A stretch of DNA of 64,000 bases from assembly GCA_003166865.1 (NCBI GenBank), contig PMUP01000071.1, positions 41,443 through 105,442 on the forward strand, in the 5' to 3' direction. Source of the DNA: Bryobacterales bacterium (GTDB lineage: Bacteria; Acidobacteriota; Terriglobia; Bryobacterales; Bryobacteraceae). The notes beneath the pieces were generated by a model. The model saw only the letters and a list, made by a program, of their open reading frames with translations. It searched no databases and was not told where the DNA came from. How positions within the stretch are numbered: position 1 is the stretch's first letter; each line of letters begins with the position of its first letter. Shown here piece after piece: positions 18,748-36,258 of the stretch. Both the position numbers and the translations under genes were made by a program.

Positions 18748-18907
18748 GACACGCTCGGCCAGCGACTGTAATCCAGTCCCTAAAGGGGTGAATCAATTGT
18801 ATCAGGATGCCCCAGTTCGATTGTAAGGGCCCAGTTGTAACGGAGCCGTTGCGTAGTCCCAGCTAAGGTTGGTCGGGGGCTGGTGCGGTTTAAGTTCTCC
18901 GCTTAGT

Positions 18908-19438
18908 ATGAGATTGAGAGGAAATACGATGCGGCCGGTGATGTTTATAGCTCTATTGGGAACCACTTTCTCCCTGAGTCCCGCGCGGGCCCAGAATTCG
19001 CCGGAACAACCAGCCTCTGGCACGGCGGAGTCGCATCAGAGGCATGGCGGTCCGCTCTTCGAGGGTGGGCCGGCGCGGCCGAGTGCGCTGGCGGAAGCTC
19101 GCCGTACAGAGTCCCGGCGTACACCAGGGGCGGGAACAGTTCCGGACTCCGCGCATGCAACCCCGCCGGCAGCAGCGCCAGCCCTCGTAACGGTTCAGGC
19201 CGTTCCACCCGGTCCTCCGCAGAAGAACCTGACCGGCGAAGAGTTTGCGTTCATCCGTGTTGGCTCCACTGCGAAAGAGCTACTCGAGGTGCTTGGCCCG
19301 CCGTCATCCCGTGTCATAGTTCCGGACGACGACGGTCATTTGCGCGAAAGCCTTCAATACTGGGTGAAAGGCAGCCCGATGGGAACTGTTCGCCTGGACA
19401 ATGGCCGCGTGGTTCAAATCGAGACCAAGGGTAAGTAA
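18908..19438 (+). CDS. Secreted protein with C-terminal BamE/SmpA-OmlA-like domain (cassette copy 1)
   Basis: Signal peptide, Pro-rich middle, LTGEEFAFIRVGSTAKELLEVLGPPSSRV...ESLQYWVKGSPMGTVRLDNGRVVQIE. Confidence 0.75.
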   Translation: MRLRGNTMRPVMFIALLGTTFSLSPARAQNSPEQPASGTAESHQRHGGPLFEGGPARPSALAEARRTESRRTPGAGTVPDSAHATPPAAAPALVTVQAVPPGPPQKNLTGEEFAFIRVGSTAKELLEVLGPPSSRVIVPDDDGHLRESLQYWVKGSPMGTVRLDNGRVVQIETKGK

Positions 19439-19473
19439 TCCGCTCGGGCCCGTCCGCGGCCGACGTAGTTCTC

Positions 19474-21171
19474 CTAGTGGCTCAAGCGCAAGATCTGCGA
19501 TGAAATCGCCAGGAATGCCTGGCCAAGCTGCGCGGAAGTGGGCGCATAGATGAACGTGCCCTGTGGCTGGTTGGGGTAGCTGATGCAAGTGGGTTCGGCG
19601 GAGCAAGCGGAATACACCGGAGGATTGTTGAACTGATCTTCGTTTGGATCGTTTGCCATCCGCTGCAGCAAGATGGGATCCGGGGGATTTCCGTCGTTGC
19701 CGCCCAACCCAATCGTGAAAACGTAAGCCGGGAGGGTAGGATTCGTACGAACATTGTAGGCCGAGTTGTCGGCGGCGTTCAGCGCCGCTGAGTGTGCGTT
19801 TGGCCAATCGGTGGAAGCGGTTCCCGTTAGGTTGAGGTACCCGCTAGTGAGAGCAAGGGATTGATATTCGTTGGACGGCGCAATTTGATTCCCGAAGACA
19901 TCCTGCCCCGGAAGCCAGTTGAAATCGGAATACACCGTAGTCTCTGGCTTTGCGGAGTTGGTTGTGCTGGGGAAAGTGCACCCTGGGGAATTGGTGACAG
20001 AGATGCTATTGGTGCCGCCGCTGTCGCTGGTTTGCGCGGGGTTGAACAAAACGATCATATAGGGGCCGTTCTGAGCCTCCTGCGCGGGGTCCGCGGAATA
20101 AAACGCCCCGATCGCGCCAGTGGGAACATTCGCCATATATCCCGCGCCACCTGTATTCATGCCGATTCCGGTGGTCCACGATGGCACCGATGCCGCTGTC
20201 CTCCATCCGCCGGCATTCCACGTCTTCCCGCTGGCGTCCTGACAGGCGCTGGTGGTGTTCAGCGCCCAGGTGCTGGTGGTCCCTGGCGTTGCATAAAAAT
20301 TGTAGATCAGAGTATTGGGCAATCCGTCCGTCTCCAGCATGATGATGTTCATCGCGCCAGGCTCGTTAATTTGGAATAGCTGGTTGTATGCCATGGAAAC
20401 CGCCGCCGCCGTTCCCGTGCCTCCGTTGCAGTCGATGTTGTCGATGGTCCCGTTGCTGGAGCCGGAGGCATTGGTATAACCCAGCACAGTCTGAAAATTA
20501 CTGGTTGGTTTCGACTCCAGGTAGTAACCGTCGGCGAAGGTAAGCAGTCCGATTTGATCCCGCCCCTCAGCGAAGGCGCCGGTAAAGTTCTTGGCATCAA
20601 TGATCATGGACGAGCAAGGAGTAGTCGTATTGCTCTTATTGCATGGGGGATTCGCCGTGGCGCCGTTGACGGAGCACATCGATCCGGAACGGTCCAGGAC
20701 CAGCATGGCGACAATGTCCTTGCGGGAAGCTTGACCACTGCCTGTGAGGGTGGTGGCGCTGAAGCCGAGGTACTTCATGAACCAAGTGGGAACGCTGGTG
20801 CTGGCGGTGACGGTGACTTGGCGGAGATTGGCATTGCTGGGAGAGTCGACAACGGTGACATTGGCGGTAGTCATTACGGTATTGGAGGTGGCCCAGTTTC
20901 CGTTCGGAAAGTTTGCATAGAACCAATTGACGGCATTCTGCTGGGCGGACACGGCCTGAGCCGTGGTAGTTTGGCCCAGATTGAGCGCCCGCGCCGCCGC
21001 CAAAGCCGCGCCGTCGATGGCCGCTTGCAGTCGCGCTTTCGCCGAGTAAAGGATTCCAAGATCGACAAACAAACCGAGCATCGGGATGATGACCCACACC
21101 AGCGCGGCGATGGCCACGAACAGAGACGCACCCTTCTCACCATTTCTGTGTTGTTGCATTTGCACCAGCAT
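19474..21171 (-). CDS. TadG-like pilus-assembly protein with vWA domain (copy 1)
   Basis: N-terminal GEKGASLFVAIAALVWVIIPMLGLFVDLG...ARLQAAIDGAALAAARAL (Tad domain); MLVLDRSGSM MIDAS motif. Confidence 0.9.
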   Translation of the reverse strand: MLVQMQQHRNGEKGASLFVAIAALVWVIIPMLGLFVDLGILYSAKARLQAAIDGAALAAARALNLGQTTTAQAVSAQQNAVNWFYANFPNGNWATSNTVMTTANVTVVDSPSNANLRQVTVTASTSVPTWFMKYLGFSATTLTGSGQASRKDIVAMLVLDRSGSMCSVNGATANPPCNKSNTTTPCSSMIIDAKNFTGAFAEGRDQIGLLTFADGYYLESKPTSNFQTVLGYTNASGSSNGTIDNIDCNGGTGTAAAVSMAYNQLFQINEPGAMNIIMLETDGLPNTLIYNFYATPGTTSTWALNTTSACQDASGKTWNAGGWRTAASVPSWTTGIGMNTGGAGYMANVPTGAIGAFYSADPAQEAQNGPYMIVLFNPAQTSDSGGTNSISVTNSPGCTFPSTTNSAKPETTVYSDFNWLPGQDVFGNQIAPSNEYQSLALTSGYLNLTGTASTDWPNAHSAALNAADNSAYNVRTNPTLPAYVFTIGLGGNDGNPPDPILLQRMANDPNEDQFNNPPVYSACSAEPTCISYPNQPQGTFIYAPTSAQLGQAFLAISSQILRLSH

Positions 21172-21177
21172 GTCCTC

Positions 21178-21924
21178 CTAGAAGAAGTAGCGCGCGAAGA
21201 CGCCATTGCCCGACAGGCTTCCGACGCTCAAGTCCGGCGATTGAAAATACGTTTCCACAATGTAGACTACTTGCCCGTCGGTCAGCGGAGTGGTTGTCCC
21301 GTTGCCCACTTGCCAGAGGCTTTGCAGGTTGGCCTGAGCGCTGCCCGCAATCTGCGCTTGGGCGTTGGTGACGTAATCCTGCACAACTCCGGAGGTGTTC
21401 ATGATGGCAGCGGGGCACTGCCCCAAAGTCACGGTGCTCGAGTTGGCCAGCGTGCCATTGCCAAATTGAATCTGCTGCGTGTAGACGAAGCTGTTCGCAT
21501 TGGTGCACTTGGCGGCTGTCACAGCCACGCAGTTGGCCGACGTGGTCGATCCGATCCACATGATCTGCGTCACCGTCACCAAGCCATTGCCCGCATTGGC
21601 CGCGTTGGATTGCTGGTTTCCGGCGAAGGAACCTCCGATCTGAAGATTCAATCCCTGCGCCAGCCGCTGCGCCTCTTGCTGCAGCGGGTAAGTGGAAAAG
21701 TCACCACCGTGGATGTACATGCTGTCCAAATCCCGGCACACCTGGTTACATTGAATGCTCCGGATCAGATTCATGCCGACCACGAAGGCCCCGATCAGCA
21801 TGGGCACAAGCAAGACCGCCACCAAAGCGAACTCCACCATTTCCTGGCCGCTTTGCGTCCTTCTTCGCCGCGCTGTCACGCGCCTGCTTCGCGCTATTGC
21901 GCCCGGCGCTGCTGCCATTCTCAT
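21178..21924 (-). CDS. TadE-like protein (copy 1)
   Basis: RRRTQSGQEMVEFALVAVLLVPMLIGAFVVGMNLIR; ATG at 21924 or 21918 inside ORF 21178..22590. Confidence 0.85.
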   Translation of the reverse strand: MRMAAAPGAIARSRRVTARRRRTQSGQEMVEFALVAVLLVPMLIGAFVVGMNLIRSIQCNQVCRDLDSMYIHGGDFSTYPLQQEAQRLAQGLNLQIGGSFAGNQQSNAANAGNGLVTVTQIMWIGSTTSANCVAVTAAKCTNANSFVYTQQIQFGNGTLANSSTVTLGQCPAAIMNTSGVVQDYVTNAQAQIAGSAQANLQSLWQVGNGTTTPLTDGQVVYIVETYFQSPDLSVGSLSGNGVFARYFF

Positions 21925-22460
21925 TCCTGCACCGAATTGACGCCGGCCGGGTAGCCACCGAGGATGTCCGATGAGTAGACGCCGAGAGTGATCGGCGTCT
22001 GATCGCGGTAGGCGTTGGCTCCAAAGGTGCCGCTGAGCGGCGCCAGCCATGCCCAGGAAATGTTTTGAACCGACACTTGGACGATATTGCCGGGCACATT
22101 GCCACCCGAGGCAATGGGTGTATTCAAATTCCCGACCGAGTAGTAATTTACAAAAATGTGCTGGGGATTGTCGGTGGGCGTCACCAATCCCATCCCGTAC
22201 TGCTGGACGACGGACTCGATGGAGGCGTTCTGGCCCAACCCGGTGGCGGTCTGAAACGTGATCGCGTAGCGGCAGCCCTCCCGCACAGCCTCCTGCAGGG
22301 TGGCCCAACGAAACAGCAGCAAGCCGAAATCGATGAAGGCGAAGATCAGCGCAAACGTCGGCAACAGAGTAAAGACGGTCTCGAGAAGGGCGTTGCCAGT
22401 ACGCCTCCGGTTTCTCCGGCTCGAAGATGTTCTCTGGATTGGTATGGTCTTTTCTCCCAA
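21921..22460 (-). CDS. TadE-like protein (copy 1, second paralog)
   Basis: RRRTGNALLETVFTLLPTFALIFAFIDFGLLLFRWATLQEAVREGCRYA. Confidence 0.88.
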   Translation of the reverse strand: MGEKTIPIQRTSSSRRNRRRTGNALLETVFTLLPTFALIFAFIDFGLLLFRWATLQEAVREGCRYAITFQTATGLGQNASIESVVQQYGMGLVTPTDNPQHIFVNYYSVGNLNTPIASGGNVPGNIVQVSVQNISWAWLAPLSGTFGANAYRDQTPITLGVYSSDILGGYPAGVNSVQE

Positions 22461-22625
22461 TGCGGTTCTCCACCTTCATGGTGGAAGCGCGGCATGGGAA
22501 CCCCAATAGGGGAAGGACCCTACTTCGCGCTCTGCTCAATCGGCGGCCGGTACGGACTAAGGTGGTTAGTTTAAAACTAAGGTCTTTCACGGCTGGTGCG
22601 CGTCATGTTCTCTGCTTAGTATGAG

Positions 22626-23162
22626 ATGAGGGGGAATGCGATGCGGCCATTGACGATGCGAGTACCACTAGGCGCAGCTTTGCTCGGAACTGTTTTATCC
22701 ATGAATCCCGCAGGGGCCCAAAGTGCGCCCGAACAAGCGCCAGCGCCGGAGTCGCACCACTGGCACAGCCATTCGCTTTTCGAGGGCGCGCCGCCGAAGC
22801 GGAGCCCGCCTGCGGAAACGCGCCACGAAACGTCGCATCGTGCACCGGAAACGACCCAAGACCCGGCCGTCGCGAAGTCAGCGGTGCCCGCGCCGCCGGC
22901 TCCGGCCCTCCCAACGGTGCAAGCGGTTCCACCGGGCCCTCCACAGAAAAACCTCACCGGCGAAGAGTTCGCGCTCATCCGCGTTGGCTCCACCGAAAAA
23001 GAGGTCCTCGCGGTGCTTGGGCCGCCGTCATCCCAGGTCGTTGTTCCGGATGACGATGGTCATCTGCGCGAGAGCCTTCAATACTGGGTGAAGGGCAGCC
23101 CGATGGGAACTGTTCGTCTGGACAACGGCCGGGTAGTTCAAATCGAGACCAAGCCGAAGTAA
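22626..23162 (+). CDS. Secreted protein with C-terminal BamE/SmpA-OmlA-like domain (copy 2)
   Basis: C-terminal ~80 aa almost identical to 18908..19438; middle divergent. Confidence 0.75.
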   Translation: MRGNAMRPLTMRVPLGAALLGTVLSMNPAGAQSAPEQAPAPESHHWHSHSLFEGAPPKRSPPAETRHETSHRAPETTQDPAVAKSAVPAPPAPALPTVQAVPPGPPQKNLTGEEFALIRVGSTEKEVLAVLGPPSSQVVVPDDDGHLRESLQYWVKGSPMGTVRLDNGRVVQIETKPK

Positions 23163-23188
23163 ATCAACTTGGTCCCGTCTTCTGGGCC

Positions 23189-24916
23189 CTAGTGGCTTAA
23201 GCGCAGGATCTGCGACGAAATCGCTAGGAACGCCTGGCCAAGCTCCGCCGAAGTAGGCGAATAAATGAATACGCCCTGTGGCTGGTTGGCGTAGGAGATG
23301 CAAGTAGCTTCCGAAGAGCAGGCGTTAAAGACCGGAGGATTGTTGTACTGATCCTCGTTTGGATCGTTTGCCATCCGTTGCAGCAATACAGGATCGGGAG
23401 GATTTCCGTCGTTGCCGCCCAGCCCAATCGCAAAAACGTAGACCGGTAGTGTGGCGTTGCTGCGAGCATTGTAAGCCGCATTGTCGGTGGCGTTCAAAGA
23501 AGCGGCGTGAGTGGCAGTCCAGTCGTTCGATGAATAGAAACCGCCCTGATTGGTCGGTCCTACCAATATGTTTTCGTTACCCATGAGAGCGAGCGCCTGA
23601 TATTCGTTAGTTGGAGCAACTTGATTTCCGAAGACATCCTGGCTCGGTAGCCAGTGGAAATCGGAGTAATTCGTGTCCTGGTCGTTGTTGTTGCTGAAAG
23701 CGCATCCGTTGGCGGGCGGAGTCGGATTGCCGCTGCTGGCGATCATGATGCTATTGTTGTCGGTGCTGTCGCTGGTTTGCCTCGGATCGAACAACACGAT
23801 TGTATAGGGACCGTCTTGCGCGACCTGCGCGGGGTCAGCCGTATAAAACGCTCCGATGGCGCCGGGTGGGACATCGGACATGTATCCCGTGCCATTCGTA
23901 TTCATGGAGATTCCTGAGATCCACGAGGGAACCGATGCGGACGTCGTCCAGCCTCCCTGGGCGATTGTCTTGCCGTTTTTGTCCTGGCAGCCGCTGCCGG
24001 CGTTCAGCGCTAACGTGCTGGTGTTCCCCGGCGTCGAATAATAATTGTAGACCAGCGTGTTGGGCAATCCGTCCGTTTCGAGCATGATGAGATTCATCGC
24101 GCCCGGCTCGGCCAGTTTATACAGTTCGTTGTAGGCCATGGAAACTGCGGCGGCAGTTCCCGTGCCTCCATTGCAGTCGATGTTGTCGATGGTCCCGGTG
24201 CCGGAGCCGGCGGCATTGGAATAACCAAGCACGGACTGAAAATTAGTGGTTGGAGCGGACTCCAGGTAGTAACCGTCGGCAAAGGTAAGCAGGCCGATTT
24301 GATCCCGCCCCTCGGCGAAGGCGCCGGTGAAGTTTTTCGCCGCCGTGATCATGGCGGCGCAAGGAGTATTCGCATTGTTTTTGTTGCACGGGGGATTGGC
24401 GCTGCCCCCGTTGACGGAACACATGGATCCGGAACGGTCCAGCACCAGCATGGCGACAACGTCGCGGCGGGAAGCTTGACCAGTGACCGTGAGATTGGTG
24501 GAGTTGAAGCCGAGGTACTTCATGAACCAGGTGGGGACGGCGGTGCTGGCCGTGACGGTAACTTGCCTGAGATTGGCTTGGCTGGGAGAGTTGGCTACAG
24601 TTACGTTGGCCGTAGTCATGACAGTGTTGAATGTCGCCCAGTTTCCGTTCGGGAAATTTGCATAGAACCAATTGACGGCATTCTGCTGGGCCGAGACGGC
24701 CTGAGCCGACGTAGTTTGGCCCAGGTTCAAGGCGCGCGCCGCCGCCAAAGCCGCGCCATCCACGGCCGCTTGCAGCCGTGCTTTCACCGAATAGAGAATT
24801 CCCAGATCGACAAACAGACCCAGCATCGGGATGACGATCCACACCAACGCAGCGACCGTCACGAACAGAGAAGCGCCCTTCTCACCATTTCTGTGTTGTC
24901 GCATTTGCAAGAACAT
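23189..24916 (-). CDS. TadG-like pilus-assembly protein with vWA domain (copy 2)
   Basis: Paralog of 19474..21171; MLVLDRSGSMCSVNGGSANPPCNKNN; near-identical termini. Confidence 0.9.
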   Translation of the reverse strand: MFLQMRQHRNGEKGASLFVTVAALVWIVIPMLGLFVDLGILYSVKARLQAAVDGAALAAARALNLGQTTSAQAVSAQQNAVNWFYANFPNGNWATFNTVMTTANVTVANSPSQANLRQVTVTASTAVPTWFMKYLGFNSTNLTVTGQASRRDVVAMLVLDRSGSMCSVNGGSANPPCNKNNANTPCAAMITAAKNFTGAFAEGRDQIGLLTFADGYYLESAPTTNFQSVLGYSNAAGSGTGTIDNIDCNGGTGTAAAVSMAYNELYKLAEPGAMNLIMLETDGLPNTLVYNYYSTPGNTSTLALNAGSGCQDKNGKTIAQGGWTTSASVPSWISGISMNTNGTGYMSDVPPGAIGAFYTADPAQVAQDGPYTIVLFDPRQTSDSTDNNSIMIASSGNPTPPANGCAFSNNNDQDTNYSDFHWLPSQDVFGNQVAPTNEYQALALMGNENILVGPTNQGGFYSSNDWTATHAASLNATDNAAYNARSNATLPVYVFAIGLGGNDGNPPDPVLLQRMANDPNEDQYNNPPVFNACSSEATCISYANQPQGVFIYSPTSAELGQAFLAISSQILRLSH

Positions 24917-24922
24917 CTCCTC

Positions 24923-25657
24923 CTAGAAAAAGTAGCGCGCGTAGACGCCGTTGCCCGCAAGGCTTCCGACGCTCAAGTCCGGCGATTGAAAATACGTTTC
25001 CACAATGTAAGCTACTTGCCCGTCGGTCAGCGGAGTCGCGGTACCGCCGGTCACCGCGCTACTCGATTGCCACAGGGCTTGCATGTTGGTCTGGGCGGCG
25101 CCGGCCAGCGCCGCGCGCGAATCGGTAATGTAATTCTGCACCACGCCGGAGCTGTTGATGATCGCCGTCGGACACTGCCCCACGGTAACGGTGTTGGCAT
25201 TCTCAAGCGTCCCGTTGCCAAATTGAATTTGCTGCGTGTAGACGAAGCTGTCCTGATTGGTGCAATTGGCGGATCCGCCCACCGCGATGCAACTGGCCGA
25301 CGTCGGCCCTCCGATCCACATGATCTGCGTGACCGTCACTATCCCATTGCCCGCATTCCCAGTATTGGATTGCTCGTTTCCGGCAAACGAAGCTCCGACT
25401 TGAAGATTCAATCCCTGCGCCAGCTTGGATGCCTCTTGCTGCAGCGGGTAAGTGGAAAAGTCGCCGCCATGGATGTACATGCTGTCCAAATCACGGCACA
25501 CCTGGTTACACTGAATGCTTCGGATCAGGTTCATGCCCACCACGAAGGAGCCAATCAGCATGGGCACCAGCAATACCGCCGCCAGGCCGAACTCCATAAT
25601 CTCCTGGCCGCTTTGCGTCCTTCTTCGCCGCGCTGTAGCCCCCGTCGACATGTTCAT
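24923..25657 (-). CDS. TadE-like protein (copy 2)
   Basis: RRRRTQSGQEIMEFGLAAVLLVPMLIGSFVVGMNLIRSIQCNQVCRDLDSMYIHGGDFSTYPLQQEA, as in copy 1. Confidence 0.85.
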   Translation of the reverse strand: MNMSTGATARRRRTQSGQEIMEFGLAAVLLVPMLIGSFVVGMNLIRSIQCNQVCRDLDSMYIHGGDFSTYPLQQEASKLAQGLNLQVGASFAGNEQSNTGNAGNGIVTVTQIMWIGGPTSASCIAVGGSANCTNQDSFVYTQQIQFGNGTLENANTVTVGQCPTAIINSSGVVQNYITDSRAALAGAAQTNMQALWQSSSAVTGGTATPLTDGQVAYIVETYFQSPDLSVGSLAGNGVYARYFF

Positions 25658-26193
25658 TCCTGCACCGAATTGACGCCCACCGGATAGCCGCCCAAAATGT
25701 CCGATGAATACACCGCGAGAGTGATCGGTGTTGTGTTGCGGAACGCGTTGGATCCGAAACTGCCGCTGAGCGGCGCCAGCCACGCCCAGGAAATGTTTTG
25801 AACGGATACTTCCACGATGTTACCCGGCACATTCCCGCCCGACGCAATGGGTGTATTCAAATTCGAGACCGAGTAGTAATTTACGAAAATGTGCTGGGGA
25901 CTATCCGTGGTGGTCACGAGTCCCATCGCGTACTGCTGGACGATAGCCCCGATGGATGCGTCCTGGCCCAACCCCGTGGCCGTCTGAAACGTGATCGCGT
26001 ACCGGCAGCCCTCGCGAACGGCTTCCTGGAGCGTGGCCCAGCGAAACAGCAGTAATCCGAAATCAACGAAGGCGAATACCAGCGCAAACGTCGGCAAAAT
26101 TGTAAAAACGCTTTCAAGAAGCGCATTGCCTCTACGCCTGCGGTTTCTCTGGCTCAAAGGTTTGTCTTGGATTTGCTTTGCGGAATCAGCCAT
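25654..26193 (-). CDS. TadE-like protein (copy 2, second paralog)
   Basis: RRRRGNALLESVFTILPTFALVFAFVDFGLLLFRWATLQEAVREGCRYA; ATG at 26193 (MADSAKQ) preferred over 26232. Confidence 0.87.
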   Translation of the reverse strand: MADSAKQIQDKPLSQRNRRRRGNALLESVFTILPTFALVFAFVDFGLLLFRWATLQEAVREGCRYAITFQTATGLGQDASIGAIVQQYAMGLVTTTDSPQHIFVNYYSVSNLNTPIASGGNVPGNIVEVSVQNISWAWLAPLSGSFGSNAFRNTTPITLAVYSSDILGGYPVGVNSVQE

Positions 26194-26386
26194 TTGTGTT
26201 CCCCAGGCGAGCCCTAATACCCCACTCAACACTTGGAGTAGGCTGTACTAACCCAACCTGTCGGTTATCCTTCGGCGGCTATACCGATTTACTTTAGGCC
26301 GGGAGGGAATACAGACCGGAGGGAATAGAGATGGGGGGACACAACACCGCTTGCTACGCGCGCGGCTCAGTAGATTCAGCGCGTTA

Positions 26387-33853: not shown

Positions 33854-33902
33854 GTCCGCGGGAAGGGCAACGGATTTGATAGAAGCTGCCAAATAGTTTA
33901 GC
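33854..33902. repeat. Direct repeat copy 2, running into the stop codon of the STAND gene
   Basis: GTCCGCGGGAAGGGCAACGGATTTGATAGAAGCTGCCAAATAGTTTAGC. Confidence 0.9.
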
Positions 33903-36258
33903 TCAGGCGGGCGAGAAGCTTCTCGGCTTCGGCGTGGCGGTCGAGCTTTCGGAGGAGTTCGGCGTAGTTGCGGATGCAGGTGATAGTGTCGGGGTGTTCG
34001 GGTCCGAGCGCCTTTTCGTAGATGGCGGCAGCGCGACGAAAGAGCGGCTCAGCCTCCGCGTAGCGGCCCTGGTTGTAGTAGCTCCACGCCAGGTTGTGGA
34101 GGCTAGTGGCCGTATCGGGATGTTCGGGTCCGAGCACCTTTTCGGAGATGTCGAGGTCCCGGCGGTGGAGCGGCTCGGCTTCGGCGTGCCGGCCCTGTTC
34201 GCCGAAGAATGACGCGAGGTTGTTGAGGCTGGTGGCGGTGTGGGGGTGTTCTGGGCCAAGCGCTTTTTCGCAGATGGCGAGGGAGCGCTGTAGGAGCGGC
34301 TCGGCCTCGGCGTCGCGGCCCTGCGCACGATACAGAGACGCCAGGTTACCGAGGTTGATGGCGGTGGAAGGGTGTTCGGGGCCTAGCGTCTTTTCTTTGA
34401 TTGCGAGGGCGCGCTGATAGAGCGGCTCGGCATCCGTGTAGCGGCCTTGGTTGTAATAAAGCAGCGCAAGGTTGTTGAGGTAGACGGACGTGGACGGGTG
34501 CTCGGGCCCGCGTGCCTTTTCGTAAATGTCGACGGCGCGGCGGTACAACGGCTCGGCCTCGGCGTATCGCGCGCGGCCGTCGAGATAGCAGCCAATTCGG
34601 TTGAGAAGACGGGCTGCCTCTGCGGAGCCCAATCCCAGCTCTTCCACAAGGCGAGCCGCCAGTTTGGCATGCGGAAGTAACCGCTCGCATTGAGGCCAAT
34701 TCGCGAACTCCGGGAAAGGGAAAACGTTGTTTAGCGCACGTACCGCACGCCCGGCCAACGCGCGGCACTCCTCCGTGCTCATTCCGTCCTTGACCACTTC
34801 TTGCACCAAGCGATGAATGTAGAGGTTCTTGTTTTCGGCATCGCGATGGATCAGAGCGAACCTCCCCGCTTCCGCAATTGCCTCAACCCAAGCCAGCGGT
34901 TTGGAAACCAGCGTCTCAATCGGCTCACGCCATTCCTTTCCCGCCTGCGTGAAGACTTCCTCTGGGATGTCATCCGGCGCGAGAAACGCACAGCCACGCA
35001 CCACGTCGGCCGCCGCTGGATTCGCGGTAGCCAATTTGTCGAAGGCCAGAGAAAACGTGATAGTTACCGACTTATGTTCCGTCGCCAGTTTGCCCCGTCG
35101 AGCGCGTAACGCCGCACCTTCCTTGCGATAGAGTTCCAGATATTCCTCGAATGTGGAAGGCGTTTCCTCTATGAACGCCCCAGCCTGATCCAGCGCCAGA
35201 GGAAGGCCGTCCACTTCGACGGAGATTTCTCGAGCCATCGCAAGCCCAGCCTCCCTCTTTGCGCGCCGCAGCAGGAACGAAGCGCCTTCCTCGGGATCCA
35301 TCTCCCCCAGCTCAACCAGTTCGGCAATCCCTCCAGTAGCCTGCAACCGCGTCGTGATCAGCACGTGACCGCCCACGGCAACGGGCGCGAATTCGCGAAC
35401 CAGTAGAAGATCTTCGATCGTGTCGACGTTATCAAGGATCAGCAGCCATCCTGAATTCGACTCCAGCCAGACGCTCACCGCCGCCGCCACAACGCTCAGG
35501 TCCTTCTCGTCCTTCTGCGGAAGGTCCAGAATCTGTGCGAGAGCGGCGAACCCGGAAACAAGCGCATCGCGCGAGTCAGCTACGCTCCACAACACAACCT
35601 TGTATTCGCCGCGATAAACGTAAGCGTACTCGACCGCAGTTTGCGTCTTGCCCATCCCACCGATCCCGCTGATAGCGGCTGCCCCTTTTGTCAGGGCCTT
35701 CCGAACGTCCTCCAGTTGCTTTGCGCGCCCAGTAAAGAAGGGATTGCGCGGCGGTACGTTCCAAATCGCGTTTCGAAAGTCCGGTCTCGCCTCCCGACGT
35801 GGCAACGCGGGAGCTTTGGTCTCACCGCTCAGAAACCGGCGGAGTGTTTCATACCCACCTTCGAGCAGGAAGTTCGAATACTTGCGGAGTTCCAGCGGTA
35901 TGTGCTGGCGGTCGCCCTCCTCCAGCAACACTGGGATGATCCGGTCATTCACACCCCCGGCTTCGTAAAGCTGCTGCAGAAATGTCTGGCTTTCGTAGGC
36001 GACGCCGTGCCCTACACCGATCTCTTCCTCGCCGTCCCATCGTCGCCGATAAGTCTCCGTGCACACCACCAGGACAAACTGCGCATCCCGAACCTGATCC
36101 TTCATCCACTGAATCCAGCCACGAGCCGGAAAGCTCTCATACTGATCCAGCACCGCATCGATGCCGTTGCTTCGCAGCCGGTTGGCGAGCGCCAGAACCT
36201 TGGCTTCGTGCGCGGGCGAGTCGTGGCTATAGCTGATGAAGACTTTCGGGGTCGGCAC
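33898..36258 (-). CDS. SEFIR/TIR-like + NB-ARC (STAND NTPase) + TPR protein
   Basis: N-terminal KVFISYSHDSPAHEAKVLALANRLRSNGIDAVLDQYE...FVLVVCTETYRRR; P-loop GIGGMGKTQTAVEYAY, Walker B GWLLILDNVD; five 42-aa TPR units marked by GPEHP. Confidence 0.92.
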   Translation of the reverse strand: MPTPKVFISYSHDSPAHEAKVLALANRLRSNGIDAVLDQYESFPARGWIQWMKDQVRDAQFVLVVCTETYRRRWDGEEEIGVGHGVAYESQTFLQQLYEAGGVNDRIIPVLLEEGDRQHIPLELRKYSNFLLEGGYETLRRFLSGETKAPALPRREARPDFRNAIWNVPPRNPFFTGRAKQLEDVRKALTKGAAAISGIGGMGKTQTAVEYAYVYRGEYKVVLWSVADSRDALVSGFAALAQILDLPQKDEKDLSVVAAAVSVWLESNSGWLLILDNVDTIEDLLLVREFAPVAVGGHVLITTRLQATGGIAELVELGEMDPEEGASFLLRRAKREAGLAMAREISVEVDGLPLALDQAGAFIEETPSTFEEYLELYRKEGAALRARRGKLATEHKSVTITFSLAFDKLATANPAAADVVRGCAFLAPDDIPEEVFTQAGKEWREPIETLVSKPLAWVEAIAEAGRFALIHRDAENKNLYIHRLVQEVVKDGMSTEECRALAGRAVRALNNVFPFPEFANWPQCERLLPHAKLAARLVEELGLGSAEAARLLNRIGCYLDGRARYAEAEPLYRRAVDIYEKARGPEHPSTSVYLNNLALLYYNQGRYTDAEPLYQRALAIKEKTLGPEHPSTAINLGNLASLYRAQGRDAEAEPLLQRSLAICEKALGPEHPHTATSLNNLASFFGEQGRHAEAEPLHRRDLDISEKVLGPEHPDTATSLHNLAWSYYNQGRYAEAEPLFRRAAAIYEKALGPEHPDTITCIRNYAELLRKLDRHAEAEKLLARLS

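Follow-up and report, generated by a model that had tools for sequence, protein, structure and literature searches.

Tandem and dispersed units of Tad minor pilin genes as candidate alternative pilus tips in a Bryobacterales bacterium

Introduction

That one pilus can have several Tad tips was reported in 2025 for a predatory myxobacterium (PMC12075869). The Kil pilus of Myxococcus xanthus has four tips, whose role as alternatives is supported genetically (PMC12075869). In Caulobacter crescentus, the proteins CpaJ, CpaK and CpaL have been modelled as a trimer at the pilus tip (PMC12607857), and multiple flp ATPase paralogues had already been noted in a Solibacter genome related to the one studied here (PMC3174227).

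Here, we analysed a stretch of 64,000 nucleotides (the window) of a Bryobacterales genome. An earlier note on this DNA had described a duplicated vWA adhesin/pseudopilin set, possibly diversifying or undergoing gene conversion. A duplicated set of this kind is supported by our data, and each of its units is likely to encode a tip for a Tad (type IVc) pilus, as one of several alternatives served by a single machine.

Results

Two adjacent four-gene units

The window contains two adjacent units, A and B (Table 1). Each unit spans 3.6 to 3.7 kb and consists of a bamE-like gene on the plus strand that is convergent with a tadE1-tadE2-tadG(vWA) operon on the minus strand. The nucleotide identity of A and B is 80.3% (3,494 aligned columns), and the encoded proteins are 77% (TadG), 78% (TadE2), 82% (TadE1) and 68% (BamE-like) identical, with a dS of about 0.5 to 0.7 and a dN/dS of about 0.2 to 0.3 per gene. 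Indeed, a tandem duplication with the four genes in identical order had been recognized in the earlier note. The common orientation stated there applies to the gene order but not to the strands within a unit, where the bamE-like gene lies opposite to the tad operon. Homology between A and B extends from about 70 bp before the bamE-like start to the start of tadE1. Thus, the similar flanking DNA that had been claimed exists on the left, as a bamE-like leader, but not on the right, and the operon promoters are not common to A and B.

Since the assembly is a draft of 107 contigs, a tandem pair could in principle be an assembly artefact. However, A and B differ at about 20% of their sites with every gene intact, both copies are on one 221-kb contig, and the LysR and DegQ genes that flank them are also neighbours in a congener (G001); the probability of an artefact is negligible. 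In that congener, the LysR-DegQ interval contains two unrelated genes and no tad unit, and we therefore dismissed the idea that tad genes occupied this site ancestrally. For the remaining three congeners (G002 to G004), the interval was not readable, since its flanks are on separate contigs. A search for transposon-like ends revealed no inverted repeats of 25 bp or more, and the only RNA element found was a tRNA at positions 18-91. The window also encodes a 786-aa protein with SEFIR/TIR-like, NB-ARC and TPR parts (33898-36258), a candidate for STAND-type signalling or defence.

Table 1. Features of the tad units (window coordinates unless stated otherwise)
Feature	Coordinates	Strand	Description and basis
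Unit A	18863-22443		Span homologous to unit C; blastn versus C27, 82.3% over 3647 columns
bamE-like, unit A	18929-19438	+	Predicted signal peptide, Pro-rich linker, BamE/BLIP-like C-terminal domain; assigned by ORF, family alignment and fold of the unit B homologue
tadG, unit A	19474-21171	-	565 aa; minor pilin plus vWA; Pfam Tad (PF13400) and VWA_2 (PF13519) above cut-off
tadE2, unit A	21178-21924	-	Minor pilin; Pfam TadE; prepilin motif GQEMVE; start placed by homology
tadE1, unit A	21921-22460	-	Minor pilin; Pfam TadE; prepilin motif GNALLE; TTG start
Unit B	22575-26201		Span homologous to unit C; blastn versus C27, 77.3% over 3723 columns
bamE-like, unit B	22626-23162	+	ORF; weak, sub-cut-off BamE Pfam match; AF2 fold
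tadG, unit B	23189-24916	-	575 aa; Pfam, AF2 model, PDB fold match PilB; pilin half, residues ~12-151; vWA from 153; insert, ~292-462
tadE2, unit B	24923-25657	-	Prepilin motif GQEIME; no Pfam hit of its own; homology to tadE2 of A (78%)
tadE1, unit B	25654-26193	-	Pfam TadE; prepilin motif GNALLE; ATG at 26193; longer ORF from 26232
Gene-conversion tract	25308-25492	-	Identical to L046 11131-11315 (unit C, C27)
Shared bamE-like leader	18862-18929; 22577-22626; L046 8417-8480; L067 upstream of 8389		Candidate promoter

Minor pilins and the vWA insert

The Pfam cut-off was passed by TadE1 of both units, by TadE2 of unit A and by both TadGs of the window. The prepilin peptidase motif G|xxxxE was present in every TadE1 and TadE2 checked (A, B, the third unit C described below and relatives); TadG lacks the Glu of this motif. 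The MIDAS residues D160, S162, S164, T252 and D282 of TadG were invariant among 23 homologues, as were the cysteines C310 and C405 (23 sequences), which lie in an insert of about 170 residues. In an AF2 model of TadG of unit B (23 sequences; pLDDT 80.5, pTM 0.79), a pilin-like N-terminal half is followed by a vWA fold, and the insert separates the strand that leads to D282 from the next helix of this fold. The best fold match in the PDB was the vWA minor pilin PilB of Streptococcus sanguinis, with a low whole-length TM-score.

Residues 291 to 490 of TadG are 62 to 73% identical among the copies, with 18 to 22 gapped positions, versus 82 to 92% for the remainder of the protein. All indels fall into this region, together with most of the amino acid change; for A and B, it is 62% identical and both ends are 82 to 87% identical. 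The internal divergence of the two TadGs and their lengths had thus been described correctly. That the vWA central region is the fastest-evolving part was also confirmed, with the restriction that the insert is still constrained (dN/dS of 0.19 to 0.30). For the copies overall, dN/dS was about 0.1 to 0.3, which is purifying selection. Positive selection on the TadG loops was sought by dN/dS but not found, and the idea of a "diversifying" set in the sense of positive selection is thus not supported.

If the copies were redundant or served gene dosage only, all of them would produce the same tip, and the differences in the insert would be drift of a surface loop without functional divergence. This would agree with purifying selection that extends into the insert and with the conserved cysteines and MIDAS, but not with the accumulation of indels and amino acid changes next to the MIDAS or with the separate promoters of the operons. 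Therefore, we consider redundancy rather unlikely.

A complete Tad machine elsewhere in the genome

As noted earlier, tadA, tadB, tadC, a secretin and Flp are not encoded in the window. Nevertheless, the set does not lack a machinery: elsewhere in the genome, we found TadV, RcpC, a secretin, TadZ, TadA, TadB and TadC encoded in one run on contig C1, which amounts to a complete Tad core. TadA was found in this single place of the genome. Two Flp-like pilins with a GQDxIEY motif, whose scores were below the Pfam cut-off, are encoded on contigs C104 and C38. In three relatives (G011, G016, G019), homologous triads are inside complete or near-complete tad loci. Among 101 genomes, TadG was present in 67 of the 81 that contain TadA and in none of the 20 without it, although relatedness inflates the p-value of this association. 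These findings bear on the idea that the units encode orphan vWA proteins of the surface or periplasm that are exported without a Tad machine. Such orphans would explain why the units are not beside tad core genes in the present genome, but the prepilin motifs of both TadEs, the homologues inside tad loci and the absence of TadG from genomes without TadA make them very unlikely.

The genome also encodes a shorter TadG-TadE-TadE trio without vWA on contig C79. On three public MAG contigs (L077, L080, L084), homologues of this short trio adjoin a vWA trio, and L077 has a Flp-like pilin next to the trios as well (73% to the pilin on C104). A Bryobacterales-type trio is also found on a MAG contig titled Bordetella parapertussis (L078, CALQCC020000011.1), a title that looks wrong.

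A third unit beside DNA-transfer genes

The tandem pair described earlier stands, but it is not the whole set. A whole-genome search revealed one further close TadG, on contig C27, as part of a third complete unit, C, with all four genes arranged as in A and B and a nucleotide identity of 82% to A and 77% to B. The TadE1 of unit C (L046 11504-12028) lacks five N-terminal pilin-helix residues (LLLFR) present in A and B and may be impaired by this loss. C27 also encodes a MobQ relaxase, a VirD4-type coupling protein, a tyrosine integrase and IS3-type transposases, about 11 to 22 kb from unit C. Because of these genes, C27 looks like a mobilisable element or a contig that includes one, and unit C itself may move with it. 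Ends of a mobile element around unit C were sought on C27 but not found, and known plasmids contained no close relative of TadG (best matches, 29 to 36% over about 30% of the query). A GGDEF-EAL block of 4 kb is duplicated between C27 (L046 13545-17890) and contig C2 (G000:C2 27062-31117), with 88.6% nucleotide identity.

C27 was assigned to the present genome by binning. If this was an error, the third copy would come from another organism, and the identical tract that it shares with unit B (see below) would result from transfer between genomes. Mobile genes bin poorly, the GC content of C27 is 58% versus 60%, and its tetranucleotide correlation to the window (0.977) is lower than that of C2 (0.991). 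However, the correlations of genus mates to the window are in a similar range, and composition is thus not decisive either way. Moreover, the matches of a 10-kb query from C27 to the rest of the genome were all short, unlike what is expected of a co-binned congener chromosome; this argues against such a chromosome but is not proof of linkage. Taken together, a binning error appears improbable.

Independent expansions and gene conversion

In a TadG tree, A, B and C form one group with full support, and the tandem pair of RH384, the three copies of G018 and the two of G032 form separate groups. Since the copies of each lineage group separately, the triads expanded independently in at least four lineages, the present one included.

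When A, B and C were aligned by codons, the sites that pair two copies against the third were distributed non-randomly. Within tadE2, an uninterrupted run of 26 informative sites pairs B with C (scan LLR of 35 versus a permuted maximum of 17), and the chance of such a run is roughly estimated at 1.5e-12. Indeed, a 185-bp stretch of tadE2 shows no difference at all between B and C, against a background identity of 80%, and the longest identity run in 2,000 permutations was at most 63. No clear A/B tract of this kind was found by the codon-alignment scan or among the identity runs. Thus, gene conversion as suspected in the earlier note does occur, but not between the tandem copies: judged from the alignments, the tract is ectopic gene conversion of B with the dispersed unit C. 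For the tandem sets of RH384 and G018 and for the two copies of G032, all identity runs stayed within the permutation range. Downstream of tadG on contig C22 of G032 (L054 11117-11702), a sequence of about 257 bp is repeated in tandem two to three times, almost unchanged; the repeats match the 3' end of tadG (residues about 461 to 575) and resemble partial silent copies.

The bamE-like gene

The bamE-like products missed the Pfam BamE cut-off, with 13.8 versus 23.2 bits for unit B and no hit for unit A. The top Foldseek matches of the C-terminal domain were BamE and BLIP (E of 2e-3 and weaker), and the protein is predicted to be exported and to have a C-terminal domain resembling BamE/BLIP. 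A lipobox was sought in the products of A, B and C, but there was no Cys at the end of the signal peptide; without a lipobox, the protein is not a standard BamE. The family has a stand-alone member on contig C53, with counterparts in congeners; its leader and the leader of the unit genes are similar (AACTAAGGT...). The leaders and the stand-alone paralogue share AACTAAGGTYTTT and a TAGTAT/TAGCAT-like box, and the shared leader may be a promoter.

A bamE-like gene as a standard partner of the triad was rejected, since none was found in any of the relatives' triad loci scanned. Because the bamE-like gene was found next to the triad in no other genome, assembly of the four-gene unit probably took place in the present lineage, and the unit was then copied as a block. 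In the simplest reading, a bamE-like copy together with its leader would have landed beside a triad, and the four-gene block would then have been copied twice.

Discussion

We favour a model in which every unit encodes one alternative tip. TadE1 and TadE2 would be minor pilins processed via their prepilin peptidase motif, and TadG would be a third, long minor pilin that ends in a vWA adhesin domain, with its MIDAS intact and the variable insert alongside. A TadE1-TadE2-TadG heterotrimer would cap the Flp filament, which the single Tad core (C1) would build. The BamE-like protein would be an exported accessory that the present lineage recruited as a neighbour of the triad. The four-gene unit would have been block-copied into the tandem pair and onto C27 with its DNA-transfer genes, and the copies have exchanged sequence by gene conversion. 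Tip assembly, sharing of the machine, a binding role of the insert and the role of the BamE-like protein are what we infer from the following evidence. The model is supported by the Pfam domains, the prepilin motifs, the invariant MIDAS, the AF2 model of a pilin plus vWA and the match to PilB, by the complete Tad core, the Flp-like pilins, the triads within tad loci of relatives and the occurrence of TadG only together with TadA, and by the location of unit C with transfer genes, the B/C tract, the independent expansions and the precedents of Kil and CpaL. It is weakened by the missing Glu in the prepilin motif of TadG, by the sub-cut-off scores of the Flp-like pilins, by the relatedness that confounds the association of TadG with TadA and, as the chief reservation, by the assignment of C27 through binning.

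More tentatively, and with considerable doubt, the units could form a pool of exchangeable tip cassettes that are copied as blocks, carried in one case on a transferable element and reshuffled with the chromosomal copies by gene conversion. If so, this would be a slow system of tip variation with an outcome comparable to pilin antigenic variation.

If the tip model is true, a single pilus machine could present several tips, each exchangeable for another. A Kil-like arrangement would then be present in soil Bryobacterales (Acidobacteriota) as well, with repeated independent expansions and a copy beside DNA-transfer genes. The three candidate vWA tips are a natural set that differs mainly in one loop region. 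With them, one can ask directly whether it is the vWA insert that determines the specificity of a Tad tip, and whether recombination exchanges the tips.

Among the closest described systems is KilLMN Tip1 to Tip4 of the Tad-like Kil pilus of M. xanthus, with several paralogous TadE/TadF/TadG-like trios per genome that are largely encoded apart from the machine and are thought to be interchangeable tips of one pilus (PMC12075869). The distal domain of KilN4 has no known fold (PMC12075869), whereas the Bryobacterales units have a vWA domain. The candidate tip trios of the Bryobacterales genome further differ in that two of them form a tandem and the third has transfer genes nearby, and in the conversion tract and the extra bamE-like gene. 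CpaJ/CpaK/CpaL likewise comprise two minor pilins and a pilin-vWA protein with a MIDAS (PMC12607857), but a single set was described in the Caulobacter work; the Bryobacterales genome has three close sets with a different, variable insert. The BamE-like product may share the topology of its C-terminal domain with the BamE/SmpA and BLIP folds but differs from these proteins in the missing lipobox, the long Pro-rich linker and the sub-cut-off Pfam score. PilB of S. sanguinis (PDB 7b7p, 7ba2) also has a pilin module fused to a vWA adhesin but belongs to the type IVa pilus of a monoderm and is only 12 to 13% identical to TadG in sequence.
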